Below the pieces are notes generated by a model. The model saw nothing but the letters and a program-made list of their open reading frames with translations. It ran no database searches and was not told the DNA's origin. From a virus, in the IMG/VR virus record IMGVR_UViG_3300017782_003779, positions 1 through 33,108 of that record: a stretch of DNA of 33,108 bases; one strand, written 5' to 3'. The position numbers and the translations under genes were made by a program. Shown here one piece after another: positions 13,478 through 33,108 of the stretch. Numbering within the stretch: position 1 is the first letter of the stretch; each line of letters starts with the position of its first letter.

Positions 13478-14348
13478 TATTGCTGAACAAGATATCATAT
13501 TCTTAAGTTATGATGAACCTAATGCAGAAAAAAATTATGTTGATCTGTGTAAGAAGGTGCCCTGGGCAAAACGTGTACACGGTGTAGACGGTTCAGATGC
13601 GGCACACAAAGTCTGTGCAGAGCAATCAGAAACTAAACACTTTGTTACTGTAGACGGCGACACAATAATTGATCAAAAGTTTTTAGACGTAGTACTTGAT
13701 CTAGACGAACTAGGTGTAGATGATGACTATCAGTTTAGTTGGTGTGGTAACATTGACATCAACGGATTAAAATACGGCAACGGAAGTCTAAAGATGTGGA
13801 CTAAAGACTTTGTTAGAAATATGAAAACACACGAAAACACAGACGGGTCAGACGATACACAGATAGAGTTTTGTTACTTTCACAACTACTATCAGCTTAA
13901 TCAAAACTATTCAACAAGCATTATTAGTTCAACACCACATCAGGCTTGGAGAGCAGGTTTCAGAGAAGGTGTTAAGATGTCACTAAACAGAGGTGCAAAG
14001 GTACAGGATCTTGCAAACAATACTTGGTGGCAAAATTATCATAGATTACTTGTTTGGTTAAACGTTGGTGCAGATGTTGACAACGGACTATATGCTATCA
14101 TGGGTGCTAGAGATGGTTGTCAAAAGATATTAGCAACCGATTGGGATCATTCTGTAACAAGAGATTTTAAATGGCTTAATGAATATTGGAACGAGATTAA
14201 AGACTATCCTGTAGAACAAATGATTGCCGAGTATGGCGAAGTATTACAAGAGCAAGGATTACCTATAAGTAAAGTTGCACTAGATGAGGAGCAAAGTAAA
14301 TTCTTTAAAACTGTTTATGTAAACAGTGATAGAGTACTAGGTAGGTAA
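13467..14348 (+). CDS. GT-A-like protein, paralogue of the gene at 22012
   Basis: A 293-residue protein whose first ~70 residues look like a nucleotide-sugar binding half: DIIFLSYDEPNAEKNY, then KRVHGVDGSDAAHK, then FVTVDGDTIID with the DxD-type motif D63-G64-D65. The same series (SYxEP, KRVHGVxG, AHxxA, VDGD/IDGD) recurs in the shorter gene at 22012. The C-terminal half has WRAGFREGVKMSL, also matched in the paralogue (WKSAFRECVKLS), and a DWDHSVTRDFKWL region. This family is found in marine T4-like phages and is generally thought glycosyltransferase-like. It lies directly before a radical SAM gene, as does its paralogue, which suggests a linked function. Donor and acceptor are unknown. Confidence 0.55.
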   Translation: MKINIAEQDIIFLSYDEPNAEKNYVDLCKKVPWAKRVHGVDGSDAAHKVCAEQSETKHFVTVDGDTIIDQKFLDVVLDLDELGVDDDYQFSWCGNIDINGLKYGNGSLKMWTKDFVRNMKTHENTDGSDDTQIEFCYFHNYYQLNQNYSTSIISSTPHQAWRAGFREGVKMSLNRGAKVQDLANNTWWQNYHRLLVWLNVGADVDNGLYAIMGARDGCQKILATDWDHSVTRDFKWLNEYWNEIKDYPVEQMIAEYGEVLQEQGLPISKVALDEEQSKFFKTVYVNSDRVLGR

Positions 14349-15724
14349 TGAGCGAACTAGAAAAAATTAAAAAATTAATGCCTGTGATTGAGGAGCAAAC
14401 ATCTCCTACATTCTGCTTGGCCAAATGGCATCACACCACAATATATCTAGCAACAGGTGAAACGCATAGTTGTTATCACCCTGCTCCGCACCCTATACCA
14501 TTAGAAGAACTAAAAGATAATCCAAGTGCATTACATAACACCATAGAAAAGAAAGACCAACGTAAGAAAATGTTATGTGGCGAAAAGCCAGACGGTTGTA
14601 ATTACTGTTGGAAGATTGAAGCTATGGGTAAAGACTATGTAAGTGATAGACATATTAAAACAACAAGCATTTATAATGAAGAAAGATTAGCGGAAATAAA
14701 ACAAAAAGGGGCGGATTTTAATGTAAATCCGGAATATATTGAAATAAGTTTTAGTAATGAATGTAATTTTAAATGCGGATATTGTCACCCTAAAGCATCT
14801 AGCAGATACTATAATGAAATAAAACAACACGGACCATACAGTATGTCTACTTCACATAGACAAGATATTGATTGGTTTAAGATTTACAAGAAGGAAGAAG
14901 AGAATCCATACGTAGATGCATGGTGGAGATGGTGGCCTGAAGTAAGTAAGACACTAAACATATTGCGTATAACAGGTGGCGAACCTCTAATGCACAAGAG
15001 CTTATGGGAATTGTTTGATAAGCTAGAAGCAGATCCAAAACCACACATACAAATAGAAGTCAACAGTAACATGGGTGTTAAGCCCAAGCTAGTAGAAAAG
15101 TTAACTTCTACTGTTAAAAGATTAAAAGAAAAGAATTGTATTAAAAGTTTTAAACTGTATACAAGCATTGACACTTGGGGACCTAGGGCCGAATATGCTC
15201 GTACAGGACTAGATATAAAGTTATGGGAACAGAACTTAGATCACTATCTAAGTAACACAGGATGGCCTGTAACGTTTATGATTACATTTAATATATTTGG
15301 TGTAACTAGTTTTAATTTATTATTAGAAAAAATACTAGAATGGCGACACAAATATAATAGTGATGACAATGCCACACAATGGCAACGTGTTAGATTTGAT
15401 ACTCCGCATTTGAAAGAGCCAATCATATATGACATGAACATATTACCCAAGGAAGAATTTATGCCGTATATGGAAAGTCACTTAAAATATATGCACGACT
15501 ATCAAGATGATCAAGACAGAACAAAGTTTAGTTCATTAGAAGTAGAAAAATTTAGACGTGTGGTTGACTATATGCGTACAACAAACATTGAACCTGCTAA
15601 ATTAGATCAAGGACGTAGAGATTTTTATCGTTGGTTTACAGAGTTCGATAAACGTAGAGACTGTAACTTAACTGAAACGTTTCCTGAATTAAAAGGGTTC
15701 TATAATGAATGTTCTAAAACCTAA
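14348..15724 (+). CDS. Radical SAM protein with N-terminal SPASM/twitch-like Cys domain (458 aa)
   Basis: Radical SAM enzymes reductively cleave S-adenosylmethionine at a [4Fe-4S] cluster to make a radical that modifies a substrate. The cluster motif CNFKCGYC is at C139, C143 and C146, followed by the SAM-binding RITGGEPL at 207-214 and later NSNMG and TSIDTWGPRAEY strands. Ahead of the core lies a domain with cysteines at 23, 42, 77, 84 and 87 (including GCNYCW), resembling the auxiliary-cluster SPASM/twitch domain that normally follows the core. The C terminus ends in TFPELK, shared with the genes at 16625, 27840 and 32248. It abuts the GT-A-like gene (TAATG) and overlaps the SGNH gene by 20 bases. 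The substrate is unknown. Confidence 0.82.
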   Translation: MSELEKIKKLMPVIEEQTSPTFCLAKWHHTTIYLATGETHSCYHPAPHPIPLEELKDNPSALHNTIEKKDQRKKMLCGEKPDGCNYCWKIEAMGKDYVSDRHIKTTSIYNEERLAEIKQKGADFNVNPEYIEISFSNECNFKCGYCHPKASSRYYNEIKQHGPYSMSTSHRQDIDWFKIYKKEEENPYVDAWWRWWPEVSKTLNILRITGGEPLMHKSLWELFDKLEADPKPHIQIEVNSNMGVKPKLVEKLTSTVKRLKEKNCIKSFKLYTSIDTWGPRAEYARTGLDIKLWEQNLDHYLSNTGWPVTFMITFNIFGVTSFNLLLEKILEWRHKYNSDDNATQWQRVRFDTPHLKEPIIYDMNILPKEEFMPYMESHLKYMHDYQDDQDRTKFSSLEVEKFRRVVDYMRTTNIEPAKLDQGRRDFYRWFTEFDKRRDCNLTETFPELKGFYNECSKT

Positions 15725-16625
15725 GTACTACAAATACACACCTGGAGCAAATGATCAAGATAGGTTGTTTAAGGATTTACAAGAAGTATTAGTAAATGAC
15801 AACAATAAAAAGCCTCTGCATATTAATCAAAATGTAAAGAATACAGAGTTCTGGGTCAAACGTGGCAAGAGAGAATGCACACTAGTATTGGGTGAAAGCT
15901 GGACATATGGTGAAAGCCTTGAAGGCCGTGTACAATCAGCATTAATGAAATGGGACTTAGATACACAGATAAGATACTGTTGGGGTACACAGGTTGCTAC
16001 ACTACTGGACACAGATTACTATCAGTATGCTATACCAGGAAACAACAATTTTTATATCTTTGGCAACGTAGAAAGATTACTAAAATATCTATCACCTCAA
16101 TACGATAAAATATATTTGTTAGTACAAATGACAGAGCCAAGTAGAGAAGATATTGTTATCAACGAATTAGGTGATCATCCTATTGCTAGGTTATATGATA
16201 TAAATTATGTAAGTGGCATGAGTGTTAAAGACTGGTGTGTTGAAAACGAACACATTTTTTACACACAATTAAACGATACTATTGCAAAGTTTAATAACGT
16301 AAAAGCCACTGCCTGGAAAAACTTTTGTACGCAACAAAATGAAAACTATTGGGGATTTACTATGATTAAAGAAACATGGATGGAATTTAGTGCTAGGATG
16401 TCTGGCTTTAAATTACAAAGTCCTGATTTTTATGTTGCGGCTTGGTTAAAGAACTTTGTAAGTGATTATCCTGTAGTTCAAGAAAATAAATATTTCAATA
16501 AGCAATTAGACAAGATTGAAGCGTCAAATAACTTTTTAAAACAAAGCCAAGATCATTGTCCTCACCCTGTAGCGGCCGCACACAAGGTTTGGGGATATAA
16601 TGTCTATACACTGATGGACAAGTAA
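15705..16625 (+). CDS. SGNH/GDSL hydrolase-like protein (306 aa)
   Basis: The sequence carries SGNH-hydrolase blocks. Block I, LVLGESWTYGES, has the nucleophile at Ser65. Block II is AIPGNNNF around Gly112-Asn113. A C-terminal DHCPHP region (Asp283 with His287) comes close to the end. Such enzymes hydrolyse esters, and some remove or transfer acetyl groups on sugars or LPS. No signal peptide is seen, so it acts in the cytoplasm unless exported otherwise. Two more SGNH-like genes lie at 17784 (minus) and 21120, and all three adjoin GT-A or radical SAM genes. The usual DxxH is spaced DxxxH here, so activity is plausible but unproven. Confidence 0.6.
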   Translation: MNVLKPKYYKYTPGANDQDRLFKDLQEVLVNDNNKKPLHINQNVKNTEFWVKRGKRECTLVLGESWTYGESLEGRVQSALMKWDLDTQIRYCWGTQVATLLDTDYYQYAIPGNNNFYIFGNVERLLKYLSPQYDKIYLLVQMTEPSREDIVINELGDHPIARLYDINYVSGMSVKDWCVENEHIFYTQLNDTIAKFNNVKATAWKNFCTQQNENYWGFTMIKETWMEFSARMSGFKLQSPDFYVAAWLKNFVSDYPVVQENKYFNKQLDKIEASNNFLKQSQDHCPHPVAAAHKVWGYNVYTLMDK

Positions 16626-17800
16626 TGAGTAAGACACTTTGCATACTACCCTGGATTCATATGTACGTCAATGCTGACGGAAGTGTGTTACCTTGTTGCA
16701 TAGGTGATTACAAACAGCCTTTAGGAAATACACACAATCGTAGCATAGAAGATATTTGGAATAGTCACGAATATAAAACATTAAGAAAGCAATTACTTAA
16801 TGGAGAAAAGCCTAGTATATGTAATCAATGTTGGAAACATGAAGAAGCAGGTAACACTAGCTCACGCATGAGTAACAATAAACGTTTCAAAGAAGAATTA
16901 AAATTTATAGAAACAACTAACGAAGATGGTAGCTTAGATGAAATGAATCTACGTTACTTTGATGTGCGTTGGAGTAACATTTGTAATTTTAAATGTAGAA
17001 CGTGTAGTTCAACATATAGTTCTAGCTGGGCTCAAGAAGATAACTCAACAAAGTTTGCACCTGAAAAACCTGTTTATATATTTGCAGGAGGTAATAACAA
17101 TGATAACCTGTATCAACAATTCAAACCTCATTTTAAAAACATAAAAGTATTTTACTTTGCAGGTGGCGAGCCGTTGCTTACTGATAAGCACTATGATATA
17201 CTAGAACATTTAATTGAAACAGGAAATACTAAAGTAAGATTAGAATACAACTCAAACGTAAGTAAATTAAAATATAAAAAGAAAAGCATTATAGATTTAT
17301 GGAATCAGTTCGAAGACGTTCAAGTAAGTGCTAGTTTAGATAGTTACGGACCAAGAGCAGAATATATTAGAGCAGGAACTGATTGGGATCTAATTACGAC
17401 TAATTTAAAAGTAATACGTGAACAAGCACCTCATGTAAAAATAAGTTTTAACACAGTAGTAAGTATTTTTAATCTGTGTACACTAACAGACTTCTTAAAT
17501 GAAATACAAAACGTAGATCCTAATAGTGCTAGTATGTATAACATTGTTGATCCACATTATTATAGTGTAAACGCATTACCTGAAGAATACAAGACTATTG
17601 CGTTAGAAAAGATACAAAAATATATGAATAGTAATCCAGGAAAATATAAGTGGCAACTAGAAGGTGTTGTACGTTATATTGAAAATAGTAAGTTTGATGA
17701 AAGTGCGTTAAAGCAGTTTAGAGCAAAGACTCAACACTATGACTTTATTAGAAATCAAAAATTTATTGAAACGTTTCCTGAACTTAAAAGTGTATTATAG
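16625..17800 (+). CDS. Radical SAM protein with N-terminal SPASM/twitch-like Cys domain (391 aa)
   Basis: The radical SAM motif CNFKCRTC is at C120, C124 and C127, and FAGGEPL with the SAM-binding GGEP is at 180-183. The N-terminal domain (about 1-75) has C6 in LCILPW, the pair C24-C25 after NADGSVLP, a GNTHNRSIEDIWNS segment and C66/C69 in ICNQCW. These elements have the order of a SPASM domain (Cys, GxVxPCC, xIWNSxxxxxLR, CxxC) but sit before the core. The end, ETFPELKSVL, matches three other radical SAM genes in the window. It starts one base over the SGNH stop (TAATG) and its last 17 bases overlap the end of the minus-strand SGNH gene. Peptide or carbohydrate modification is possible; the substrate is unknown. 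Confidence 0.83.
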   Translation: MSKTLCILPWIHMYVNADGSVLPCCIGDYKQPLGNTHNRSIEDIWNSHEYKTLRKQLLNGEKPSICNQCWKHEEAGNTSSRMSNNKRFKEELKFIETTNEDGSLDEMNLRYFDVRWSNICNFKCRTCSSTYSSSWAQEDNSTKFAPEKPVYIFAGGNNNDNLYQQFKPHFKNIKVFYFAGGEPLLTDKHYDILEHLIETGNTKVRLEYNSNVSKLKYKKKSIIDLWNQFEDVQVSASLDSYGPRAEYIRAGTDWDLITTNLKVIREQAPHVKISFNTVVSIFNLCTLTDFLNEIQNVDPNSASMYNIVDPHYYSVNALPEEYKTIALEKIQKYMNSNPGKYKWQLEGVVRYIENSKFDESALKQFRAKTQHYDFIRNQKFIETFPELKSVL

Positions 17801-18662
17801 GATCTGGTTTTTCATCAGGCTTTATATTAGTTTCGTAATAAAACATATCCAACCAACGTTGTTGCATATTAAACAAATGAAAATCCTTTTTATCATTACT
17901 TGCATCTCGCAATAGTTTGATCCATTTGTTTTGTGCTTCTTCTACTGCTCTATCAGTAGTGTCCTTCCAGTCGTGTTTAAATGTATCCTTTAGAAATACA
18001 TAGTGTTCCATAGGACTAGGATGTCCGTCTTGAAAGTTTTTATGAACTGTTTTTCTATCTCTTTTAAATTTACTTTCAATATTATTGTTATATAATGTTT
18101 GATAAAAGCTAGGCAATATTTCTCCTAGACTAGGAGCATAGTATTTCATCATGTCATCTATTCTATGATTCTTATCCCGTGTTGCACCAGACCACTGATC
18201 TGTTTGCTCTAGTATATCACACATTTGTAGAAAGTGATATTGTGTTTTATGTTTTAGCATTTCATGTCCTGCTTTTATAAATGCTAAATCTCTTACGTAT
18301 GCACCATACTCACTAAAGTAATCTCTTACAAATTCTTCTCTGTATTGTTTTTGTGAGTAAATATTACCTGGAGTCATCCAAGGTCCGTTTGGATCCTGCG
18401 GAACATATCTATCTTCTCTACAAACATTGGTCCATTGTACAATAACTAAATCTTCATGCGTAAAGTCATAAACAGCATCGGCCTGCATAAGCATATTGAA
18501 TATAAAGTGATTACCTGCACCACTTCTACCAAAGTTTACAAAAGTACAGTCTAGTTCTTGCCCTAGTGCGTTTGCCCAGGTTCCCCACATATAGTGAGTA
18601 AAGCTACAACCAAACGTAAACAGTCTTTTTGGTTTGTTATGATATAATACTTTCTTACTCAT
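17784..18662 (-). CDS. SGNH/GDSL hydrolase-like protein (292 aa), minus strand
   Basis: A 292-residue protein with SGNH features: TFGCSFTHY with the Ser at 20, VNFGRSGAGN with the block II Gly and Asn51, QWTN with Asn79 as a possible block III residue, and DGHPSPMEH with Asp212 and His214 for the catalytic pair. It thus carries all four residue types of the family, which points to an active esterase or acetyl hydrolase. It starts at an ATG 8 bases inside the upstream minus-strand gene at 18655. It ends convergently, overlapping the radical SAM gene at 16625 by 17 bases. No signal peptide is visible. The substrate, perhaps an acylated glycan, is not known. Confidence 0.6.
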   Translation of the reverse strand: MSKKVLYHNKPKRLFTFGCSFTHYMWGTWANALGQELDCTFVNFGRSGAGNHFIFNMLMQADAVYDFTHEDLVIVQWTNVCREDRYVPQDPNGPWMTPGNIYSQKQYREEFVRDYFSEYGAYVRDLAFIKAGHEMLKHKTQYHFLQMCDILEQTDQWSGATRDKNHRIDDMMKYYAPSLGEILPSFYQTLYNNNIESKFKRDRKTVHKNFQDGHPSPMEHYVFLKDTFKHDWKDTTDRAVEEAQNKWIKLLRDASNDKKDFHLFNMQQRWLDMFYYETNIKPDEKPDPIIHF

Positions 18663-19923
18663 CTGCTAGATCTCTCATTTTAAGTGCCACATTTTTAAAC
18701 TTTTCTTTAGTATACTTACCTTCTAAAAGTGTTTTAAAGTTATGCACCAATACCTGTTCGTTTTTAAACTTCCATCGTATGTGTTGTTTTACAGTTGGTA
18801 ATGTTCTAATGTAATCTATTTGTTTGCATACTTCTTTCCACAAAGCTCTCCAACGTTTTACAGGGTCATGGATATCATCAAAACTTAAATCAAACCAATC
18901 GTCATATAATTTATATCCGTAATCTACCATGCGTTTGTTAATGCCAGGTTGTCCCCATATAACAAAAGGTTGCATATGATATATGCTTCTAAAAGTTTTT
19001 TCACTCCAGAACAAACTAGTTCCATGCCAATCATTTACAAACGTTTCGTTTACTATTTGAAACAATGATTGATCATTTAGATCACTGTGTAATGCAGTTG
19101 CATGATTAGTTTTAAAATCTTCCGTGTCTACAATCAAAGGTAGATGTTTCTTAAAATTTTTTAATTGCTGAAAATTTACACCACTGTTTGGAAAAGGTAT
19201 CTCAGTAAGATAATAATCTAAGTTCATACCTTTTAAACTTCCATGACTAACATACATATCTTTAAAATGTTTGCTGTTGAATATTTCCATAGCACTAAAA
19301 GTTCTGTGTGGTCTGTTTACCCTACTTAAACTTAATCCTAGTTTATTGAATTGAGGGTGATGGTATTTTAACTTTGTTCTTTTTACTGCGGTATTAATTC
19401 TTTTATCTACAATAGCATCGACGTCTATGTTCCCACTCAAATCGACTTCTGTTTGTCCAGCTGTGCCAAATATCATCTGTTCAAAGTTTAGATATGTAAA
19501 CACGTTGATACTTGTTTTTATGTTATGTTCCATGTTATAACGCATGATGTTATCATTGTCTTTCATGTTACTACTGGTAAAAAATATCCTGCGTGGATCT
19601 ATGTCATACTTTTTAGCCATCTTATATAGAATATCAAAATACGGTTCTCCGTAGATAGTGCTAAATCCTTCAGTACTTGCATCAAAAAGAAAGAAACATT
19701 TCTTATCTTCCTTCATTTGATTTTGGACTTTTTTCTTAACATAGGTAAAAAAGTCAGTATCAGGGTACCATTTTGGATAGCCAATTAGCACAGTAATAAC
19801 AGTGATATCGTCATGTACTATTTCATTCGTTCTAAAAGCCTTCTCCAATTCTACTGTAGTCTGAGTAAACTCGGGATCTTGTACAAAAGAGTTGAATCTT
19901 AAGAAGCCACGTATACGTTTCAT
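18655..19923 (-). CDS. Conserved marine-phage protein, possibly glycosyltransferase-like (422 aa)
   Basis: A 422-residue protein first in a two-gene minus-strand unit. Its C-terminal third has a motif I recognise from marine phage proteins, WSEKTFRSIYHMQPFVIWGQPG (residues ~306-327), followed by an aromatic patch with KLYDDWFD. It also has RVNRPHRTF at 201-209, where similar proteins read LNRxxRPHR. The N-terminal half includes FLFDASTEGF (78-87) and IFFTSSN. The SEKTF...QPF...G pattern resembles the donor-binding end of fucosyltransferase/exostosin-type GT-B enzymes, so a glycosyltransferase role is a fair guess but not shown. A late-promoter TATAAATA lies 27 bases upstream on this strand, with GGAAG before the ATG. 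It overlaps the SGNH gene by 8 bases. Confidence 0.45.
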   Translation of the reverse strand: MKRIRGFLRFNSFVQDPEFTQTTVELEKAFRTNEIVHDDITVITVLIGYPKWYPDTDFFTYVKKKVQNQMKEDKKCFFLFDASTEGFSTIYGEPYFDILYKMAKKYDIDPRRIFFTSSNMKDNDNIMRYNMEHNIKTSINVFTYLNFEQMIFGTAGQTEVDLSGNIDVDAIVDKRINTAVKRTKLKYHHPQFNKLGLSLSRVNRPHRTFSAMEIFNSKHFKDMYVSHGSLKGMNLDYYLTEIPFPNSGVNFQQLKNFKKHLPLIVDTEDFKTNHATALHSDLNDQSLFQIVNETFVNDWHGTSLFWSEKTFRSIYHMQPFVIWGQPGINKRMVDYGYKLYDDWFDLSFDDIHDPVKRWRALWKEVCKQIDYIRTLPTVKQHIRWKFKNEQVLVHNFKTLLEGKYTKEKFKNVALKMRDLADE

Positions 19924-19936
19924 ATTAATAATCTTC

Positions 19937-19944
19937 CATAAATA
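19937..19944 (+). promoter_or_regulatory. Probable late promoter (CATAAATA), plus direction
   Basis: CATAAATA fits NATAAATA and points toward the GTG start at 19985, 40 bases on, with AGGAG just before the GTG. It lies in the only divergent intergenic region of the window and overlaps the leader of the minus-strand unit. Confidence 0.45.
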
Positions 19945-19950
19945 TTACTA

Positions 19951-19958
19951 TATTTATA
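19951..19958 (-). promoter_or_regulatory. Late promoter (perfect TATAAATA), minus direction
   Basis: The plus strand reads TATTTATA, so the minus strand has the exact T4 late consensus TATAAATA. It is 27 bases upstream of the minus-strand ATG at 19923, with GGAAG in between. It explains expression of the minus-strand pair 18655-19923 and 17784-18662. Confidence 0.6.
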
Positions 19959-19984
19959 TACGCATTTAATGGTAGGAGATTAGT

Positions 19985-21127
19985 GTGAAGATTAGTTTTA
20001 TCGGATTGGGTAAACTTGGTTTACCTTGTGCAGAAGCAGTAGCACAAAAAGGACATACAGTAAGCGGTTACGACATAGTAAACGTAACTAGCGACACAAT
20101 TAACGTAAAAGATAGCATAGCAGAAGCAGTAGCAGGTCAAGACATAGTGTTTGTTGCTGTACCAACACCACACGACCCAGCCTATGATGGCAGAGCTCCT
20201 ACGGCTCATTTAGAACCCAAAGACTTTTCATATGACATTGTAAAAGAGTGTTTAGAAGAAGCCAACAAGTTTATGACAAAGAATCAACTGCTTGTTCTTA
20301 TTAGTACAGTATTACCTGGCACAACACGTAGAGAATTTGTACCGTTAGTAAACAACACAAGATTTGTTTACAATCCATATCTTATTGCTATGGGTACAGT
20401 TGCTTGGGATATGATTAATCCTGAAATGATTATGATTGGAACCGAAGATGGAAGTGCTACAACTGATGCTAGAGAGTTAGTAAAATTTTATCAAAGCATT
20501 ATGGAAAACAATCCACGTTACGAAATAGGTACTTGGGACGAATGTGAATGTATAAAAGTTTTCTACAACACATTTATTAGTACAAAGATTGGACTAGTCA
20601 ATATGATGCAGGACGTAGCACAGAAGCAAGGCAACATTAATGTTGATGTTGTAACAAGAGCTCTTTCAAAGTCAACAATGCGTATCATTAGTAAAGCATA
20701 TATGAAAGCAGGTATGGGCGATGGCGGTGCTTGTCACCCACGTGATAATATTGCTCTACGTTACATGGCACAAGAACTTGGACTAGGTTACGATTTATTT
20801 GATAGTGTAATGAATGCAAGAGAGAAACAAGCAGAAAACATGGCTATTGAAATATTAAAATACGGAAACAAGGTTCAGTTTAGTAGCGATAGTTATAAGC
20901 CGGGTGTTGATTATGTTGACGGTAGCTACAGTTTACTAGTACAACACTACATAAAAAAACATGGCGGTTATGTTGTAAAAGAAAAGCCAATGATCTATGT
21001 GTTGGTACATGAAGGAGATACAGTTCCTGATAACGTACCTGTGTTCGATCCTTGGAGAACATACAAAGGAACCAACGTAGTTTATTATGGAAACACAAGG
21101 AAAAACAAAGGTATAATTTGTGAGTAA
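19985..21127 (+). CDS. UDP-glucose/GDP-mannose dehydrogenase family protein (380 aa)
   Basis: This family oxidises a nucleotide sugar in two NAD-dependent steps to its uronic acid. The sequence has the Rossmann loop GLGKLG at 7-12, VPTPHD at 59-64, STVLPGTT at 107-114, the Lys191 segment CIKVFYNTFIS at 189-199, and the catalytic Cys250 in GGACHPRD (247-254). The usual SPEFLxEG segment is replaced by NPYLIAMG near 130-137, so the substrate may differ from UDP-glucose. The C-terminal third, the UDP-binding domain, is present. At 380 residues it is a little shorter than most. The start is GTG with AGGAG upstream, just after the divergent promoters. It overlaps the SGNH gene by 8 bases. The family is secure; the exact nucleotide sugar is unknown. 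Confidence 0.82.
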   Translation: MKISFIGLGKLGLPCAEAVAQKGHTVSGYDIVNVTSDTINVKDSIAEAVAGQDIVFVAVPTPHDPAYDGRAPTAHLEPKDFSYDIVKECLEEANKFMTKNQLLVLISTVLPGTTRREFVPLVNNTRFVYNPYLIAMGTVAWDMINPEMIMIGTEDGSATTDARELVKFYQSIMENNPRYEIGTWDECECIKVFYNTFISTKIGLVNMMQDVAQKQGNINVDVVTRALSKSTMRIISKAYMKAGMGDGGACHPRDNIALRYMAQELGLGYDLFDSVMNAREKQAENMAIEILKYGNKVQFSSDSYKPGVDYVDGSYSLLVQHYIKKHGGYVVKEKPMIYVLVHEGDTVPDNVPVFDPWRTYKGTNVVYYGNTRKNKGIICE

Positions 21128-26013: not shown

Positions 26014-26399
26014 GATTATTATTAGTAGCAATTTTTATGTGTATTATAGTTTCGGTAGGAGACAGTAAAGCATTAGATTTAAAACAGTTTTACAAAGAAC
26101 CTTTAACAGAAACTGATAAGGCAGGTATCATTGCTTTTAATATATTACAAACAATAGATATGTTACAGACTTTAGAAATAGCAAACAATGACAACTATTA
26201 TGAAAAGAATAAAATATTAGGTAAGCACCCAAATGAGTTTCAAGTTATAACTTATTTTATTGCTAGAGGATTTGCACACTATGAAGCAACAAAGATGATA
26301 CCTGAGAAATATAGATCCATATGGCATACGTATAATGTTGTTTATAATTATGATGTTATTAGAGATAATCACAGTATAGGAATAAGAATAGGCTTTTAA
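26010..26399 (+). CDS. Small secreted or membrane-anchored protein of unknown function (129 aa)
   Basis: The N terminus MRLLLVAIFMCIIVSVGDSKA is a good signal peptide, with a hydrophobic run at 3-16 and a probable cleavage site after Ala21. The mature part contains QTIDMLQTLEIA, YYEKNKILGKHPNEFQVITYF and an aromatic/His-rich C-terminal half, predicted mostly helical. Similar short proteins with the pattern QTxDxxQT...NxxLGxHP appear in phages as conserved hypotheticals, from memory. It is one of the very few genes here with an export signal, so it is a candidate for an envelope-acting component. It overlaps its neighbours by 4 and 1 bases. No function can be named. Confidence 0.5.
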   Translation: MRLLLVAIFMCIIVSVGDSKALDLKQFYKEPLTETDKAGIIAFNILQTIDMLQTLEIANNDNYYEKNKILGKHPNEFQVITYFIARGFAHYEATKMIPEKYRSIWHTYNVVYNYDVIRDNHSIGIRIGF

Positions 26400-27007
26400 T
26401 GAAAATAGATATACACGATATAAAGTTCTGGATGGACGCAATACGTAACAGCGAAGATAAAGAACGTACACTTGAGAGTTTCTGGGACGGTCAGATTAAA
26501 AGTAAGCTCTGGCTAATTGAAGCACTTGAAAAACACAAGTCTATTAGAAATGCAGAGTTTGTAATACATGGCGGTTGGAACGGAGTACTAGCTTGTATGA
26601 TGTTCAATAGTGAACTAGGTTGCAAACACATAACAAGCATTGACATAGATCCTAAGTGTAAAGAAATAGCAAGTACAATGAACAAACGTTATGAGATGGA
26701 AGGTAAGTTTGAAAGTGTAACTGCTGATATGTGTGAATATGAATATACTAGAGAGCCTTACTTTGTTATCAATACAAGCTGTGAACACATCACACAAGAA
26801 CAATACAACACTTGGTTAGACAAAGTACCAGATGGAGCACAAATTATTTTACAAAGTAACAATTACTTTGAATTAGATGAACACGTAAACTGTAGCAAGG
26901 ACCTTAAAGAGTTTGAATGGAAAAGTAAATTAAATGTATCTGAAAAAGCAGAACTTGAACTGCCTAAGTATACAAGGTATATGTTAGTTGGAAGGAAAAA
27001 CAAATGA
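26399..27007 (+). CDS. Class I SAM-dependent methyltransferase-like protein (202 aa)
   Basis: A Rossmann-type protein with motif I-like VIHGGWNGVLA at 55-65, an acidic motif II end at SIDIDPKC (80-87), VTADMCEY (107-114) and NTSCEHI (125-131) near motif IV. This matches small class I methyltransferases found in marine T4-like phages, where the target is unknown. The glycine motif is HGGWNG and not the standard ExGxGxG, so I am cautious about activity. It overlaps the secreted-protein gene by one base (TAATG) and hemC by 4 bases (ATGA). A methyl donor role in sugar, peptide or tetrapyrrole chemistry is possible. Confidence 0.6.
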   Translation: MKIDIHDIKFWMDAIRNSEDKERTLESFWDGQIKSKLWLIEALEKHKSIRNAEFVIHGGWNGVLACMMFNSELGCKHITSIDIDPKCKEIASTMNKRYEMEGKFESVTADMCEYEYTREPYFVINTSCEHITQEQYNTWLDKVPDGAQIILQSNNYFELDEHVNCSKDLKEFEWKSKLNVSEKAELELPKYTRYMLVGRKNK

Positions 27008-27843
27008 AAGTAAGGGTAGGAGTTAGAGGTAGTGAACTAGCATTGTCAATGGCAGAAATAGTAACTAGAAAATTAGAACAACTAAACTGTACTGTAGAAA
27101 TTGTTCCAATCAAATCAGATGGAGATATCCACGAAGATAAAGTTATTGCTGACATAGGTGGCAAAGGAGTATTTTGTAAACGCATAGAAGATGAATTGTA
27201 TAATGGTGCTGTTGATGTAGCTGTACACAGCACAAAGGACTTACCAACTGTAATGCCAAAAGAGTTAATACTTGCGGCAGTATTAAAACGTAACGATCCA
27301 AGAGATTGTTACTTGGGTAAATTCTTTCCAGGTGCAAGAGTAGGAACAGGTAGTCCAAGAAGAATAGCACAACTTAAAAATAACTTTAAGGTAGACTTTG
27401 AGATAAAACATATCAGAGGAAATATTGCAACACGCATTAAGAAATTAAATGACGGTGATTATGATGCCATTATTTTGGCAAGAGCAGGACTTGAAATACT
27501 AGGATTAGAAAAATATATAACACATACATTTGACTTTGATAAAATGTTACCAGCGGTTGGACAAGGTGTTATTGCTGTACAGACACGTACTATGAGCCCT
27601 TACACAGCTCTAGTAAGGCAAATAAACCACTTGGATACATTTTATAGTGTATTAGCAGAACGTACAGCATTGAAGTTCTTAGACGGTGATTGTCATAGTG
27701 CAGTAGGAGTACTTGCACAGGTAGTAGGAGATTGTATTACACTAAAAGGAATCAACTACGAAAACATGAAACAGTCTACAGTTACAGGAAAGATATTGGA
27801 ATATAAACAAATAGGTGAACAAGTAGGATTAGCAATAAAATGA
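27004..27843 (+). CDS. hemC: Porphobilinogen deaminase (hydroxymethylbilane synthase)
   Basis: HemC joins four porphobilinogens into hydroxymethylbilane using a dipyrromethane cofactor attached to a cysteine. The 279-residue protein has RGSELAL near the N terminus, VHSTKDLP at 74-81 with the catalytic Asp79, SPRR at 117-120, HIRGNIATR at 136-144 with substrate-binding arginines, AVGQGV at 184-189, and the cofactor Cys230 in LDGDCHSAVG. These correspond to E. coli Asp84, Arg131/132, Arg149/155 and Cys242. The protein is shorter than the usual 300-315 because domain 3 is small. It overlaps its neighbours by 4 bases each. All key residues are present, so it is likely active. It is unusual in a phage. 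Confidence 0.93.
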   Translation: MKVRVGVRGSELALSMAEIVTRKLEQLNCTVEIVPIKSDGDIHEDKVIADIGGKGVFCKRIEDELYNGAVDVAVHSTKDLPTVMPKELILAAVLKRNDPRDCYLGKFFPGARVGTGSPRRIAQLKNNFKVDFEIKHIRGNIATRIKKLNDGDYDAIILARAGLEILGLEKYITHTFDFDKMLPAVGQGVIAVQTRTMSPYTALVRQINHLDTFYSVLAERTALKFLDGDCHSAVGVLAQVVGDCITLKGINYENMKQSTVTGKILEYKQIGEQVGLAIK

Positions 27844-29144
27844 GTAAAACATTTTGCCCACTACCCTGGATACATTTAGCGACACGACCTAACGGAGATG
27901 TTAGAGTTTGCTGTACTGCCAATGCCAGTGGTGCGGGTAAACAAGATGAAAAGACAGCAGGACTTGTTAAGAAAGATGGTATTGCTATGAACCTACGTGA
28001 CCATACAATAGAAGAAGTATGGAACAGCGAACACATGAGAAGAACAAGACTTCAAATGCTCAATGGCGAAATACCTGCCAGTTGTACTAAATGCTTTAAT
28101 GAAGAAGCAAAAGGTATTTCAAGTAAACGCCAATGGGAAAGTGCAGAATGGAAAGAACGTTTAGACTTTGATAAACTTATTGCAAGTACAAAGGAAGATG
28201 GTACTGCACCTGTAAACATTCCTTACTTTGATTTACGTTTAGGTAACCTATGCCAATTGAAATGCGTTATGTGTAGTCCACATGATAGTTCAAGTTGGAT
28301 TAAAGAATGGAAACTACAGTATCCGCAGTATAAGAACAAGGACCTAGTTGCTGACCAAGGTTGGGACGATCAATATGATTATACCTGGTATAAAAAAGGA
28401 TCGTTTATAGATTCAATGAAAGACCAGGCACAGCATATACAAGAACTGTACTTTGCAGGCGGAGAACCGTTACTAATACCTGAACATTATAAAATATTAG
28501 AGTTTATGGTCGACGAAGGATATGCAAAAAATTGCAACCTACGATATAATTCAAATGGATTAGAATTACCAGACAAGTTATTTAAACTATGGGATCATTT
28601 TAAGGAAGTACGTTTTAATTTTAGCATTGACGCATATGGTGAACGTAATGATTATATACGTTACCCAAGCAAGTGGTCGGACGTTGAAACCAACTTAAAG
28701 AGATTAGATCAAAATACAAAGGATAATACGGTTATCAATATTGCCTGTGCAATACAATTATTAAACGTAGGTTACATAGATGAATTAGCTGAATGGAAAA
28801 TGGATCAAGGCTTTAGCAAGATTAATCCATCAATGTTTGGCGGCGGAATCATAGGAACGCATTTGGTTTATTTGCCATCGTACCTAAATGTACAAGTACT
28901 ACCACAAGAAGCAAAACTATGGGCTAAACAAAAGATTGAAAGTTTTATTGACAGACAGAAGTTTAATTTAGAATTTAATCAACACCCATACGGTGCTCAA
29001 CGTTGGAGAGGACTAATTAAATACATGATGCAAGATGATTGGGGAAACAAACTTCCTGCACTACAAGAATACTTAAAGATAACAGATGAAAGACGTGAAA
29101 CAGACTTTAGAAAAACATTTCCAGAGCTTGGGAGATATATGTAA
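27840..29144 (+). CDS. Radical SAM protein with N-terminal SPASM/twitch-like Cys domain (434 aa)
   Basis: This is the third complete radical SAM protein with the cysteine domain ahead of the core. The N terminus has C6 in FCPLPW, C24-C25 after NGDVRV, an IEEVWNS segment and C82/C85 in SCTKCF. The core motif CQLKCVMC is at C138, C142 and C145, and FAGGEPL with GGEP is at 207-210. The second half includes NFSIDAYGERNDYIR, the same type as SLDSYGPRAEYIR in the gene at 16625. The end, TFPELGRYM, also matches the shared C-terminal tail. It starts 4 bases inside hemC and abuts the aminotransferase gene by one base. The target molecule is unknown. Confidence 0.83.
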   Translation: MSKTFCPLPWIHLATRPNGDVRVCCTANASGAGKQDEKTAGLVKKDGIAMNLRDHTIEEVWNSEHMRRTRLQMLNGEIPASCTKCFNEEAKGISSKRQWESAEWKERLDFDKLIASTKEDGTAPVNIPYFDLRLGNLCQLKCVMCSPHDSSSWIKEWKLQYPQYKNKDLVADQGWDDQYDYTWYKKGSFIDSMKDQAQHIQELYFAGGEPLLIPEHYKILEFMVDEGYAKNCNLRYNSNGLELPDKLFKLWDHFKEVRFNFSIDAYGERNDYIRYPSKWSDVETNLKRLDQNTKDNTVINIACAIQLLNVGYIDELAEWKMDQGFSKINPSMFGGGIIGTHLVYLPSYLNVQVLPQEAKLWAKQKIESFIDRQKFNLEFNQHPYGAQRWRGLIKYMMQDDWGNKLPALQEYLKITDERRETDFRKTFPELGRYM

Positions 29145-30265
29145 TGGAATATAAAGGACTAATACTAGGACAACAGACTGACGTAAGTGTAGACACTGAA
29201 CACTGGAAGTTTGGCACAATTAAAGACGGAGTCAAGTTAATTGACAACCTTTTATATTATAGTGCGTTTAGTCTAGGATATGACGACCATGGTATCATTG
29301 ATAAAGTATGTACTAGAATGAAAGGATTCAAACACGAGACAGGTGACAGTTTGTTTTTTGGTCATTCAGGACCAGCTGTAAATTCACCACACATTGATTT
29401 AGCAAACAGATTGTATAACATGACCGATGGATACAGACCTGTGTTTGCATTATCAGGAAGTGACGGAGTAGAAGTTGCTATCAAGTTAGCCTTTGCATAT
29501 CATCAAAGATGTGGAAATACTAGAAAGAAAATAGTATCATTTGACGATGCGTATCATGGATCAACTTTACTGTCAATGAGTGTTGGAGATGTACACTTTC
29601 AAAGTGCATACTACGGAATGGATCCATATCAAAACGTAATTAAATTATCACGCAATAATTTAGAACAGGAAGTTGATTGGGACGATGTTGCTTGTATCGT
29701 TGTAGAAACTTGTCCACATGATCAAGATATATCACCTTATGGGTATGACGTTTGGAATAAAGTAAATGAGATACAAGCCAAACATGATGTACTCGTAATC
29801 ATAGATGATGTGTTTATGGGTGGCGGTAAAACAGGAGACTTCTTTGGTTGGAGTAAACAACCTGTTAAGCCTGATCTATTTGTAATGGGCAAGGCAATTA
29901 CAGGAGGCTTCTTTCCGTTATCAATGGCTATGTTTAATGAGAAAGTACATGAAAAAATAAAAGACGGAAAGTGGTTACATGGACACACATACAGTATGAC
30001 CCTGTCAGGTGTATTGTGTATGGACGAATACTTAAACGTTTTAGAAAATTACAAGTATATGGATAACGTTAATAATGTTATAGAACTTGCAAGACAGAAT
30101 TTATCAATCGATGGTTGGAACATCAGCGGAAACTTTGGCACTACTTTTATGATAAACAAAAGTGATAAGCATTTTAGGTTTATTGTACCTATTAATGCAG
30201 ACCAAGAATACTTTGATGCAATACCAGATACGTTAAAAGAAATGGAAAAGGTACACGGATTATGA
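29144..30265 (+). CDS. Class III PLP-dependent aminotransferase (373 aa)
   Basis: This fold transfers amino groups with pyridoxal phosphate. Motifs visible are SGSDGVEVAIKLA at 104-116 (phosphate and substrate region), FDDAYHGST at 133-141, IIDDVFMGGGKTG at 219-231 with the PLP-contacting Asp221, and LFVMGKAITGG with the internal-aldimine Lys250, then LHGHTYS at 278-284. These resemble the DAPA/ornithine aminotransferase side of class III more than glutamate-1-semialdehyde aminotransferase. It is short for the class (usually 400-460). It starts one base over the radical SAM stop and overlaps the SDR gene by 4 bases. It could make an amino sugar or another amine. HemL, which would join the hem genes, is possible but not favoured. 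Confidence 0.78.
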   Translation: MEYKGLILGQQTDVSVDTEHWKFGTIKDGVKLIDNLLYYSAFSLGYDDHGIIDKVCTRMKGFKHETGDSLFFGHSGPAVNSPHIDLANRLYNMTDGYRPVFALSGSDGVEVAIKLAFAYHQRCGNTRKKIVSFDDAYHGSTLLSMSVGDVHFQSAYYGMDPYQNVIKLSRNNLEQEVDWDDVACIVVETCPHDQDISPYGYDVWNKVNEIQAKHDVLVIIDDVFMGGGKTGDFFGWSKQPVKPDLFVMGKAITGGFFPLSMAMFNEKVHEKIKDGKWLHGHTYSMTLSGVLCMDEYLNVLENYKYMDNVNNVIELARQNLSIDGWNISGNFGTTFMINKSDKHFRFIVPINADQEYFDAIPDTLKEMEKVHGL

Positions 30266-30786
30266 GAGTAGGAATCACAGGACATTTGTCAGGACTAGGT
30301 AAAGAACTTTATACACGCATACCAGATAGTATAGGATTTGACTTAGGCAGTCATCATGACATAAAAAATCCTGATCCTTGGATTGACGCCTTATTAAGTT
30401 GTGACGTTTTTATTAACAATGCGTATGATGGATTTCATCAAGCTAATATGTTAGAAAAAGTTTTTTTAAAGTGGATGAATGAGGATAAAACAATTATAAA
30501 CATTAGCAGTACTGCTTCTGAAATAAAACATATAAATTATCAAATGGGATTTTATCCTATACATAAAAAAGCACTAGACGAAGCCTGCATGAGATTACAA
30601 CACATAGAGAAAAAGTGTAGAGTAGTAAATATTAAAATAGGTTGGATGGACACGCCTATGACAGAAGGATTTGATACAGCTAAATTGCCCGTTGATGGTG
30701 TAGCCACAAAGATTATAGATGTAATGAATGATAAAGATATAACATCAATAACAATAGAAGGTCCATGGCAAAAGTGGGATTACTAA
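30262..30786 (+). CDS. Short SDR-family NAD(P)-binding protein (174 aa)
   Basis: A short Rossmann dehydrogenase/reductase. It has the coenzyme loop TGHLSGLG at 6-13, the NNAYD motif at 52-56, catalytic-region serines in ISSTAS at 81-86 and the Tyr98-Lys102 pair (YPIHK), all in the standard SDR order. At 174 residues it lacks most of the usual C-terminal substrate region, like several reduced SDRs of marine phages. It overlaps the aminotransferase by 4 bases and directly abuts the radical SAM gene at 30787. The second SDR, 31716, lies after that radical SAM gene, so the pair brackets it. It could reduce a keto sugar or an aldehyde; the substrate is unknown. Confidence 0.72.
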   Translation: MRVGITGHLSGLGKELYTRIPDSIGFDLGSHHDIKNPDPWIDALLSCDVFINNAYDGFHQANMLEKVFLKWMNEDKTIINISSTASEIKHINYQMGFYPIHKKALDEACMRLQHIEKKCRVVNIKIGWMDTPMTEGFDTAKLPVDGVATKIIDVMNDKDITSITIEGPWQKWDY

Positions 30787-31719
30787 ATGAAACTAGTATA
30801 CAAGGACATTACAAAAAACGATTGGTTCTTAGTTAGTTGGACACTATCTAATAAGTGTAACTATCGTTGTGAGTACTGCCCCGACATACTACACAATGGT
30901 AGCACAGGACAACCACGTTGGGAAACTGTAGAACGTTTTATAAAAAATTTAAAAGTAAACAAGGATATCTGTTTTAGGATAAGTGGTGGTGAACCTACGT
31001 ATTGGAAACACTTTATAGACATGGCAAAGTGCGCCAAGGAGCAAGGACATAAGTTTACATTTGTAAGTAATGGAAGTCAAAAGCCAGAGTACTTCAAACG
31101 TATTGCACCCTATACAGATGCTATGATGTTAAGCTATCATAAAGCATACGCAGATCCAGAACATTTTATAAAAGTAATAAATGAAAGCGGAATCAATACA
31201 GTTGTAAACATGATGTTATTGCCAACAGACTTTGAAGAAGCATTTAAGATATCAGAACTAATTTATAGCAATACAGATATAGCAAGTATTGAGCCTAAAG
31301 TTATTGTAGATAAAACATCTAGTGAAAGTATTACAAATGAAGTTGTTACATATACACAGCAACAAAAGGATACAATTAAGAATTGGCCCTTTAGTAGAGA
31401 TATACATTTCGGAGATGTACACAGAGGCGAAATGCAATTACAATACAATGACTGGTTCAAGGATAGCAAAGACGTAGACGCTAATCAACTAATACTAGAA
31501 GGTAAGAACAAATTTGTAGGTTGGAAATGTTGGGCAGGTGTTGACGGAGTAAATATAGATATGTGGGGCAATATGTATAGAGCAGACTGTCAGTTCGGTG
31601 GAGCAATAGGTAATTTAGAAAGATACAAGTTGCCAACAGAACCTATAGTATGTGGTAAAAGCATTTGCAGTTGTCTAAGCGACATATACATTAAGAAAGA
31701 ACAAGTAGCAGAACTATGA
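30787..31719 (+). CDS. Radical SAM protein with Cys-rich C terminus (310 aa)
   Basis: The core motif CNYRCEYC is at C24, C28 and C31, and ISGGEPT with the SAM-binding GGEP is at 67-70. It is a paralogue of the gene at 22694: YKDITK N terminus, an SYH motif at 116-118, WKCWAG at 246-251, and a similar C-terminal set of cysteines (C248, C268, C289, C294, C296). These could hold an auxiliary cluster. It starts immediately after the SDR stop with no gap and overlaps the second SDR by 4 bases (ATGA). The radical SAM assignment is firm; the substrate is unknown. The position between two SDRs hints at a sugar or small-molecule pathway. Confidence 0.82.
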   Translation: MKLVYKDITKNDWFLVSWTLSNKCNYRCEYCPDILHNGSTGQPRWETVERFIKNLKVNKDICFRISGGEPTYWKHFIDMAKCAKEQGHKFTFVSNGSQKPEYFKRIAPYTDAMMLSYHKAYADPEHFIKVINESGINTVVNMMLLPTDFEEAFKISELIYSNTDIASIEPKVIVDKTSSESITNEVVTYTQQQKDTIKNWPFSRDIHFGDVHRGEMQLQYNDWFKDSKDVDANQLILEGKNKFVGWKCWAGVDGVNIDMWGNMYRADCQFGGAIGNLERYKLPTEPIVCGKSICSCLSDIYIKKEQVAEL

Positions 31720-32267
31720 GCAAAATATTAGTAACAGGAAATCCTAACTACGAAGGTTTATGCAAAGGTATCTATGAAGCATATAATCATAATAGGGTAG
31801 AGTTCATTGGCAGATGGAATGACTGGGATCTAGGAGACTTTGAAAAAGTCGCCAACTATGCGAAAGACTTTGATGTATTTGTAAACAGTCAGTATGGTCC
31901 TGATGGAGAACAGGTAGATATATTAAATGCTGTATACGATAAGTTTGAAAGAGGACATATAATTAATATCAGCAGTACAACAAGTTTCTGGGGTGACGGT
32001 TATAGTCCGGAAGGGTATCTTGAAAACAAAACTGCACTTGATAAAAGAAGCAAAGAACTTTGTAAGAATGTATGTTGGGGTAATAGTAAAATACGTATGA
32101 GCAATATTGCTTTTGGTCAACTAAATTCTAAAACACAAAAATTAAAAGACGATAAACACAAAATTAGTTTACAACAAGCAGGGCAACTTGTTAAGTGGGT
32201 AATTGATAGTCCTACTTACACCAACGTTCACTATATAGCACTTGATCCTATACAAACAGATCTTTAA
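31716..32267 (+). CDS. Short SDR-like protein (183 aa)
   Basis: A short SDR with a coenzyme loop TGNPNYEG at 7-14 that departs from the usual TGxxxGxG, FVNSQYG at 55-61 in the NNAG position, INISSTTS at 83-90 and Tyr101-Lys105 (YLENK) as the catalytic pair. It is similar in size to the SDR at 30262 and probably related. The unusual glycine loop means cofactor binding is less certain. It is the last gene of the plus-strand series, and its final 20 bases overlap the 3' end of the minus-strand radical SAM gene. Substrate unknown. Confidence 0.6.
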   Translation: MSKILVTGNPNYEGLCKGIYEAYNHNRVEFIGRWNDWDLGDFEKVANYAKDFDVFVNSQYGPDGEQVDILNAVYDKFERGHIINISSTTSFWGDGYSPEGYLENKTALDKRSKELCKNVCWGNSKIRMSNIAFGQLNSKTQKLKDDKHKISLQQAGQLVKWVIDSPTYTNVHYIALDPIQTDL

Positions 32268-33108
32268 GTTCAGGACAATAATCTAACACACTTGTATTTC
32301 TAATCTTATCTAGATCTTTAGTATAGTTTACAAACAAGTCTATATGTTTACCTAGTTCCTTATCTTGTTCATATGTAATCTTAGGAAATCTAAAATCAAT
32401 CTTATCTAGTATCTCGTTAGGTAATATTCTAGGATTCAAGTAAGGCGGTTTAGCAACTACATTATTAAAATATATTTCCCAGTTGTCTTTTTTATTTTCT
32501 TCAAACCACCACCATATCTTATCTAGGTGTGCAATATTATATGCCATAACAGTTACAGCAATAATAATTCTATCAAAGTCGTACTGCTTTAGGTTTTCAT
32601 TTAGTTGATCAAACGTAAAGTTCTTTCCACCTCTAATGTATTCATACAGCTTACCTGTTCCTTCTAAACTTACTGTCCATTTAGTTTCGCCAAAGTGTCT
32701 AGCAAGTTCCTGTATTTCTTCATCAACGATCGTACCATTCGTTGTCCAGTCAAGTGTAACATTTTTTGCAACTCCTAAGTCTATAAACTTCTGCAATATC
32801 TTTTTGTTTGCAGGCTCCATGTAAGGTTCTCCACCCTTGATACTTAGATAACGTAAGTTCATAAATGGTGTGGGATCCTCGAATAATTTTTCTATGATCT
32901 GATCGCTTTTATTAGTGTAACCAAATTCTGGATCGTCAGTTCTTCTAAAATACGGGTTACCATTTTGTGCAAGTTTAAGATCGTCCTTGACCCAAGCACT
33001 AGAATTGATACCGTCACACATACGACATTTTAGGTTACATATATTACTCATATTGAACTCCAAAAAGTAGATATCTGTGAAGTCTTTTGAGTAATCATAT
33101 CCCTTGTC
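32248..33108 (-). CDS. Radical SAM protein, 5' end outside window
   Basis: Read on the minus strand, the frame is open through the window edge at 33108. The codon at 33061-33063 is TTG and not a convincing start, and the residues before it (TDIYF) continue smoothly, so the gene is cut by the edge. The core motif CNLKCRMC is visible just inside, followed by IKGGEPY. The C terminus DYCPELKDLFV matches the FPELK tail of the genes at 14348, 16625 and 27840, so I expect an N-terminal cysteine domain beyond the edge. The phrase WTVSLEGTGKLYEYIRGG parallels the SIDxxGxRxxYIR motif of the others. It converges on the SDR gene with a 20-base overlap. Confidence 0.8.
   Translation of the reverse strand, partial: DKGYDYSKDFTDIYFLEFNMSNICNLKCRMCDGINSSAWVKDDLKLAQNGNPYFRRTDDPEFGYTNKSDQIIEKLFEDPTPFMNLRYLSIKGGEPYMEPANKKILQKFIDLGVAKNVTLDWTTNGTIVDEEIQELARHFGETKWTVSLEGTGKLYEYIRGGKNFTFDQLNENLKQYDFDRIIIAVTVMAYNIAHLDKIWWWFEENKKDNWEIYFNNVVAKPPYLNPRILPNEILDKIDFRFPKITYEQDKELGKHIDLFVNYTKDLDKIRNTSVLDYCPELKDLFV

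Follow-up and report, generated by a model that had tools for sequence, protein, structure and literature searches.

A virus record from IMG/VR (IMGVR_UViG_3300017782_003779; 33,108 bases, analysed in full and referred to here as the window) carries seven radical SAM genes in a block of enzyme genes that follows a giant virion gene and tail-collar genes. The window is best read as an interior piece of the genome of a large marine phage with a contractile tail. Radical SAM genes recur in marine viromes, where they are usually filed singly as auxiliary genes and sometimes as haem synthases. An earlier note had listed seven of them between positions 14348 and 33108 and proposed a dedicated chemical pathway. 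The motif CxxxCxxC was present in open frames at all seven positions, and all seven proteins exceeded the 29.5-bit cut-off of the Pfam Radical_SAM model (PF04055). The block was real, but it continues past the window edge, and longer relatives have 8 to 10 radical SAM genes. The last gene, g36, was also a radical SAM gene, but it is encoded on the minus strand and runs off the end of the window; its homologue in the nearly identical 83-kb contig G001 has 381 amino acids.

Membership in the N_Twi family was defined as an NCBIfam NF033640 score above the curated cut-off of 170 bits. Four proteins (g16, g18, g31 and g36) passed, and g24 (33.9 bits), g26 (49 bits) and g34 (21.1 bits) fell short and are of other types. 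At least three architectures were seen, as had been claimed: an N-terminal twitch/SPASM part with the radical SAM domain in the N_Twi proteins (the N-terminus of g36 lies beyond the window), a weak C-terminal SPASM match in g26 (19 bits versus a cut-off of 21.5), and additional C-terminal cysteines in g24 and g34. The three cluster cysteines of g24 and four more were invariant across 23 sequences. SkfB was the best PDB match of the N_Twi profile. The g26 and N_Twi profiles matched BlsE weakly, and the sequence matches found with the g24 profile did not include it. Against the BlsE model TIGR04466 (cut-off 400), g36 scored 17.1 bits; the others were not among the matches listed (the best 25 for g24, g26 and g34).

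The intergenic gaps from g8 to g36 were zero or overlapping in 27 of 28 cases, and the remaining gap was 61 bases, which fits long co-transcribed runs. Most of the block was found in the same order in the IMG/VR relatives G001, G005 (157 kb), G006, G002 and G007. Among 11 records including the window, g26 and g29 were each present in 10 and g21, g23, g24, g31 and g34 each in 9; these counts are not independent, because several records are fragments or near-copies of one another, and they are lowered by the inclusion of G004, which was obtained through HemE and has no shared radical SAM gene. PF04055 matched at 10 places in G006, at 8 in G001, G002, G005 and G012, at 7 in G007 and G011, at 6 in G003, at 5 in G008 and at 3 in G010. 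It matched at none in G004, G009, G013 and G014, the contigs obtained through HemE. The genes g9, g12, g17, g32, g33 and a halogenase-family gene were variable among the relatives, which also added a TauD dioxygenase, an Asp/Asn-hydroxylase, QueC-like proteins, a DegT aminotransferase, an AMP-binding protein, a tryptophan-halogenase-family protein and, slightly under cut-off, a nucleotidyltransferase-like protein. The halogenase-family protein lies near the radical SAM block of the 71-kb relative G002 (L069:11214-12320; PF04820, 233.4 bits). No DNA near-match to positions 8300-33108 was found among annotated phages. By tblastn against phages, g24 gave no match, g16 matched two records and g31 four; against plasmids, g31 gave a single weak match.

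The core module of the block consists of the GT-A-fold protein g23, the radical SAM proteins g24, g26 and g31 and the methyltransferase-like protein g29, and these occur together in most of the viral loci sampled. The viral N_Twi scan covered the best 80 of 325 loci, selected by N_Twi similarity and hence a non-random phage sample. A g31-type gene was defined by an identity of 40% or more, and partner genes were counted within 12 kb. Such a gene was present in 55 of the 80 loci, accompanied by g26 in 47, g29 in 42, g24 in 39 and g23 in 28; at least three of these four partners were present in 36 of the 55. In the 25 loci lacking it, g24 was found in 5, g29 and g23 in 2 each and g26 in 1. Partner presence is a lower bound because many loci are cut. 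The order in the window is g23-g24-(g25)-g26-(g27, g28)-g29-(g30 HemC)-g31, and when this is set against the core, the genes in brackets look like inserts. Since gene order was kept in related contigs and the core module co-occurred, the block is not a chance collection. The proposal of a dedicated pathway was thus supported by the conserved order, the close spacing and the co-occurrence of the core in distant phages and in bacteria. In most of the viral loci sampled the core set travels together; unrelated families without a conserved neighbourhood, the outcome that would have spoken against the proposal, were seen for accessory genes such as HemE and KdsA but not for the core.

The same co-occurrence bears on another possibility, a hypervariable landing site filled with genes that serve no shared product. 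In its favour, several genes are present in some relatives and absent from others, and host-recognition clusters are termed hypervariable in the accessible text of PMC7029224. Sinorhizobium phage Phosso and Agrobacterium phage Atu_ph07, rhizobial jumbo phages, are the closest cultured relatives by the phrog_11259 protein (g2); the remaining records among the matches listed (30 of 60) have genomes of about 310-380 kb. In both phages the baseplate genes, the giant virion gene, the phrog_11259 gene and the collar gene succeed one another as they do here, and four CxxxCxxC genes per stretch come after them; those of Phosso are annotated as radical SAM. These genes gave no BLASTP match to the block at 1e-4, so that different genes occupy the equivalent place. 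A landing site does not account for a core set that co-occurs across distant phages and bacterial genomes, and we regard it as improbable.

The genome scan for N_Twi loci gave 78 distinct bacterial loci from the best 80 of 217. A g31-type gene was found in 9 of them, 8 of which have two or more partners; among the other 69, g26 occurred in 6 and g23 and g29 in 1 each. Carriers were mostly Bdellovibrionota by record titles. Some loci are probably phage contigs inside metagenome-assembled genomes (MAGs): L147, L149, L154 and L168, because phage tail-gene homologues adjoin the radical SAM genes, and L099 and L102, because they resemble the viral contigs L210 and L222. They were retained in the count of 78, L099 and L102 being among the 9 with a g31-type gene, and L096 (13 kb, Neisseriaceae MAG) was left unassigned in it as to phage or bacterial status.

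The Bdellovibrionota clusters (L095/L126, L097, L098, L103, L113, L169) combine a g31-type gene with g24 and/or g26, and often with g23 or g29. The genes g24-g26-g31-g29 are adjacent in L113 (Bdellovibrionales), and L169 (Halobacteriovoraceae) has g26-g31-g24. They differ from the phage block in that they lie in bacterial genomes, no tail genes were noticed and other neighbours are present, including a B12-type radical SAM gene and GT2 genes. The chromosomal neighbours of L095/L126 (936-kb contig) are a class II tRNA synthetase, MscL and a SIS-domain gene, and the L129 cluster (917-kb contig) adjoins DnaG, sigma-70 and YqeY genes. Three GT2 genes above cut-off stand beside g24-g31-g26 in the L255-L256 cluster (328-kb contig); one GT2 and one GDSL gene above cut-off stand beside N_Twi radical SAM genes in G044 (2.66-Mb contig). 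With at most 11 candidates scored per genome, NF033640 matched at E 1e-20 in 42 of 144 Bdellovibrionota genomes, with up to 11 scored copies each; without at least four genomes chosen via earlier matches (G015, G016, G017, G021), the count was 38 of 140. In the comparison phylum, that of the Pelagibacter MAG G026, it was 3 of 150, or 2 of 149 without G026, which matches at least partly on a phage-like contig. Named controls gave 0 of 14.

In a quick tree with support from the Shimodaira-Hasegawa-like approximate likelihood ratio test (SH-aLRT) only, g16, g18, g31 and g36 each fell into their own clade with bacterial proteins (smallest quoted starred sets of 19, 14, 14 and 5 rows; SH-aLRT 98, 98, 97 and 96). 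The tree's 'BDELLO' label was hand-assigned and includes L105, titled only 'bacterium'. Recent duplication within a phage was rejected as the source of the four N_Twi genes, because each sits in a separate phage-plus-bacterium clade. The core shared by phages and Bdellovibrionota suggests a common chemistry, perhaps an unusual surface sugar. We propose, tentatively and with more doubt than confidence, that a single biosynthetic system with several radical SAM enzymes, so far undescribed, is common to marine T4-like/jumbo-type phages and predatory Bdellovibrionota. It would be of such an age that each of the four N_Twi enzymes forms its own phage-plus-bacterium clade, and its product would be a radical-modified glycan or glycopeptide that both display at the surface that meets other bacteria.

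The remaining genes (Table 1) were in part as first described. The aminotransferase g32 and the Asp/Asn-hydroxylase g25 exceeded their cut-offs, but the short-chain dehydrogenase/reductase (SDR) labels of g33 and g35 fell below cut-off and were not significant, respectively. Among the proposed GT-A glycosyltransferases (GTs), g23 was upheld by a predicted model, but g8, g11, g15 and g20 were named by eye only and had no significant Pfam hit. The SGNH label of g17, g19 and g22 likewise came from motifs seen by eye, and Pfam did not bear it out. KdsA (g9), HemE (g12), HemC (g30) and the UDP-sugar dehydrogenase-like proteins g21 and g27 had been overlooked. We take the GxGGxC-P motifs of g21 and g27 to be the UDP-sugar dehydrogenase motif, and the cysteine of the GDC motif in HemC is presumably the cofactor site. 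The HemE-family protein passed the Pfam URO-D model but scored 257.4 bits with TIGR01464 (HemE), under the curated cut-off of 302.95. A comparison of g29 with PDB sequences gave nothing meaningful.

Table 1. Genes of the window. By-eye labels come from motifs; x/11 gives presence among the 11 records.
Gene	Position	Strand	Assignment	Score or remark
g1	2..1405	+	C-terminal end of giant virion gene (4,906 amino acids in G001)	flank outside block
g2-g6	1427..8301	+	phrog_11259 gene, then tail-collar/virion-type genes	flank marking phage setting
g8	8692..9552	+	conserved block gene; GT-like by eye only	no Pfam hit; 8/11
g9	9552..10325	+	KdsA, 3-deoxy-D-manno-octulosonate (KDO)-8-phosphate synthase; accessory	TIGR01362 328.9 bits, cut-off 314; 2/11
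g11	10506..11348	+	conserved block gene; GT-like by eye only	Pfam nothing significant; 8/11
g12	11320..12261	+	HemE family, uroporphyrinogen decarboxylase; accessory	PF01208 240.1 bits; 5/11
g15	13467..14348	+	conserved block gene, homologues in bacterial loci; GT-like by eye only	no Pfam hit
g16	14348..15724	+	radical SAM, N_Twi family	PF04055 33.1 bits; NF033640 318.0
g17	15705..16625	+	SGNH-like by eye only	no Pfam hit
g18	16625..17800	+	radical SAM, N_Twi family	PF04055 34.6 bits; NF033640 396.5
g19	17784..18662	-	SGNH-like by eye only	Pfam nothing significant
g20	18655..19923	-	conserved block gene; GT-like by eye only	no Pfam hit; 8/11
g21	19985..21127	+	UDP-glucose/GDP-mannose dehydrogenase family	PF00984 66.0 bits; GDGGACHPRD
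g22	21120..22019	+	SGNH-like by eye only	no Pfam hit
g23	22012..22707	+	GT-A-fold protein; core module	invariant DxD
g24	22694..23671	+	radical SAM with SPASM-like C-terminal part; core module	PF04055 51.5 bits
g25	23661..24278	+	Asp/Asn beta-hydroxylase family	PF05118 25.7 bits, cut-off 22.6
g26	24278..25270	+	radical SAM with C-terminal Cys region; core module	PF04055 37.2 bits
g27	25267..26013	+	UDP-glucose dehydrogenase family	PF00984 93.8 bits; GFGGHCFPKD
g29	26399..27007	+	methyltransferase-like, conserved family; core module	Methyltransf_25 17.1 bits, under cut-off 27
g30	27004..27843	+	HemC, porphobilinogen deaminase; accessory	PF01379 221.6 bits; GDC motif
g31	27840..29144	+	radical SAM, N_Twi family; core module	PF04055 39.8 bits; NF033640 430.4
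g32	29144..30265	+	class-III aminotransferase	PF00202 153.8 bits; 5/11
g33	30262..30786	+	SDR-like	PF13561 22.8 bits, under cut-off 27
g34	30787..31719	+	radical SAM	PF04055 52.5 bits
g35	31716..32267	+	SDR-like	own match not significant; bacterial homologue L126:12240-12827 matches SDR models below cut-off
g36	32248..33108	-	radical SAM, N_Twi family; 5' end beyond window	PF04055 36.8 bits; NF033640 182.4

The presence of HemC and HemE inside the block raised the question of a tetrapyrrole pathway, in which they would feed AhbD/NirJ-like radical SAM enzymes making a haem variant. In agreement with this, g26 matched AhbD weakly (30.4 bits), and g34 and g36 gave weak matches with NirJ-type models. 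The best scores with TIGR04545, TIGR04051 and TIGR04054, however, reached 30.4 to 30.7 bits, where the curated cut-offs range from 500 to 650. The virus contig G004, which also encodes a terminase and an A-type carrier, has genes of the HemC and HemE families and no radical SAM gene, and G005 and G006, with 8 and 10 radical SAM places, have neither HemC nor HemE among the called open reading frames (ORFs). We rejected this pathway, which we disfavour as highly improbable, because HemC/HemE and the radical SAM genes separate between contigs; the tetrapyrrole genes are passengers. A Baltic survey reported 261 'ahbD' genes and, in its accessible text, termed the functional inference rather speculative (PMC9301287). 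In a tree of HemC proteins, the copies of the phages and of G004 joined a Pelagibacter MAG (89/94, below the starred level, with long branches), a hint but no proof of a SAR11-like host. Ten HemC-bearing records filed as 'phage', among them Salmonella entries, contigs of whole-genome type and very small records, had been dropped, as they were taken to be bacterial DNA. As a further host clue, tRNA genes were looked for, and none was found in the window, G001 or G005.

Structures were predicted for g23 and g24. The g23 model had a predicted local distance difference test value (pLDDT) of 92.7, and its best VIA match was B4GALNT1 (Z 11.5, root-mean-square deviation (rmsd) 2.7, 136 residues), its C-terminal third being barely tested by the matches. 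D57 and D59 of the DxD motif were invariant. A sequence search of the PDB with g23 gave no match. The GT-A fold together with DxD supports g23 as a predicted glycosyltransferase; the fold alone does not fix the activity, because IspD-type nucleotidyltransferases score almost as high. For g24, VIA-align gave BlsE (Z 15.2), EpeE (14.7) and MoaA, PqqE and anSME (14.4), all within 1 Z. The superposition with BlsE (PDB 7vob), a cytosylglucuronate decarboxylase, had an rmsd of 4.0 over 267 residues at 15% identity. Viperins ranked below BlsE, EpeE and MoaA, within 2 Z units. The structure lists do not settle the substrate of g24.

The block is read here, with an even chance of being right, as an island for glycan-type biosynthesis that adjoins the phage's tail-fibre genes. 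The UDP-sugar dehydrogenases g21 and g27, the aminotransferase g32 and the SDR-like proteins would provide a nucleotide-linked sugar of an unusual kind, either a uronate or an amino sugar. Several radical SAM enzymes could remodel it by radical steps such as epimerisation, dehydrogenation, deoxygenation or decarboxylation; attachment of the sugar would fall to g23 and other GT-like proteins, and its methylation to g29. The product may be placed on the envelope of the infected cell, where it would hinder further adsorption, or on the virion. HemC, HemE and KdsA would be separate metabolic extras.

We favour the glycan reading because gene order is conserved and the core genes co-occur, because of the GT-A fold and invariant DxD of g23, and because g21 and g27 belong to the UDP-sugar dehydrogenase family and g32 to the class-III aminotransferases. 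It is further favoured because relatives add the nucleotidyltransferase-like protein and the DegT aminotransferase, because the bacterial L255-L256 cluster pairs GT2 genes with g24-g31-g26, and because the enzyme that heads the structural matches of g24, though in a tie with others, is BlsE, whose substrate is a glucuronate nucleoside. In addition, a pelagimyophage island with GTs, a UDP-glucose dehydrogenase and radical SAM cassettes is read as O-chain modification in the accessible text of PMC7029224.

Several points weigh against a glycan product. The structure of g24 ties with the peptide enzymes EpeE, PqqE and anSME, and the by-eye GT labels (g8, g11, g15, g20) and SGNH labels (g17, g19, g22) lack Pfam support. 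SPASM/twitch radical SAM enzymes are often peptide modifiers. The G044 cluster has no g24, g23 or g29 and no g31-type gene above 40%, few GT genes were recognised by eye in the L095 and L120 clusters, and Pfam was applied to 10 of the 74 ORFs of the two bacterial clusters L255-L256 and G044.

Some of these points would suit peptide or protein maturases that cross-link, epimerise or otherwise modify a peptide or tail protein, which the GT-A protein may then glycosylate. SkfB and ChlB also belong to the structural ties of g24, SkfB leads the PDB matches of the N_Twi profile, the Foldseek list of g23 includes the peptide S-glycosyltransferases SunS and ThuS and polypeptide GalNAc transferases, and the block adjoins tail genes. 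UDP-sugar dehydrogenases and KdsA point instead to sugars, and a precursor peptide was not recognised, though no systematic search for short peptides was made. We consider maturation of a peptide rather unlikely. A modified nucleotide or nucleoside, either a viperin-like chain terminator or a 7-deazaguanine-type DNA modification, was given little credence. Prokaryotic viperin (NF038283) was the top NCBIfam model for g34 (49.6 bits) and g24 (39.7 bits), and relatives have QueC-like proteins and a QueE-like gene named by eye; the viperin scores are, however, far below the cut-off of 180, viperins trail in the structural ranking of g24, and the GT-like and sugar genes would stay unexplained. Taken over the sum of the evidence, a predicted nucleotide-sugar-based product fits better than the alternatives.

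Compared with published systems, the number of radical SAM genes is less unusual than the earlier note had assumed. The marine T4-like genome TARA_ERS488813_N000010 (183 kb) has 12 radical SAM genes and an A-type carrier (PMC5332604), which resembles our phages in the many radical SAM genes and, for G005, in the carrier; we compared it by description only, and the accessible text describes no neighbourhood or module. The carrier of G005 (G005:140119-140418; PF01521, 59 bits) could help to load many iron-sulfur enzymes. The host recognition cluster of pelagimyophages is an island downstream of VrlC, bounded on its far side by the neck gene gp14, with GTs, a UDP-glucose dehydrogenase and radical SAM cassettes, and a porphobilinogen deaminase in one group and a curli operon are also reported (accessible text of PMC7029224). 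Our block, too, is a large island within the structural region and lies downstream of a giant baseplate-type gene and of tail-fibre genes. The likeness is one of position; in contrast, the radical SAM module is not described in the accessible text of that paper, and g2 has its nearest cultured relatives among rhizobial jumbo phages. The number of genes by itself is no novelty, because the 12-gene genome and the pelagimyophage cassettes are in print. The apparently new part is the conserved module and its Bdellovibrionota counterpart, which were not found in our searches of open-access articles (subscription journals and preprints were not covered).

A module recurring in phages and predatory bacteria makes part of the virome radical SAM genes one testable pathway. 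The cultured rhizobial phages with radical SAM genes at the same place offer a laboratory entry point. If the surface role is true, an island in the host-recognition region would alter the host surface or the virion.

Some further observations were made. In Vibrio phage K566 (L092), five CxxxCxxC genes, four of them annotated as radical SAM, match radical SAM proteins of the block at 22-27% identity. In G004 (bases 16172-21593; L077, L078), the genes ahead of HemE resemble curli genes by eye. Some 15 kb downstream of its radical SAM block, G001 has a gene judged by eye to be QueE-like (G001:72166-73062; L056), and G005_038 looks amidinotransferase-like by eye and had no Pfam hit. The B12-type radical SAM protein of L126 (L126:7312-8829) scored 63.5 bits with PF04055 and 29.7 bits with the B12-binding model, under the cut-off of 32.1. 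Pairs of small membrane proteins, HTTM/SdpA-like by eye, accompany the Bdellovibrionota clusters (L126:14048-15410, L095:19098-20547, L120:3765-5229, L256:13817-15144); the three proteins tested had no Pfam hit. Finally, an ORF of 62 amino acids at window positions 10325-10513 has a hydrophobic start and four cysteines, and it has counterparts of the same length in G002 and G005; BLASTP also located it in G006.

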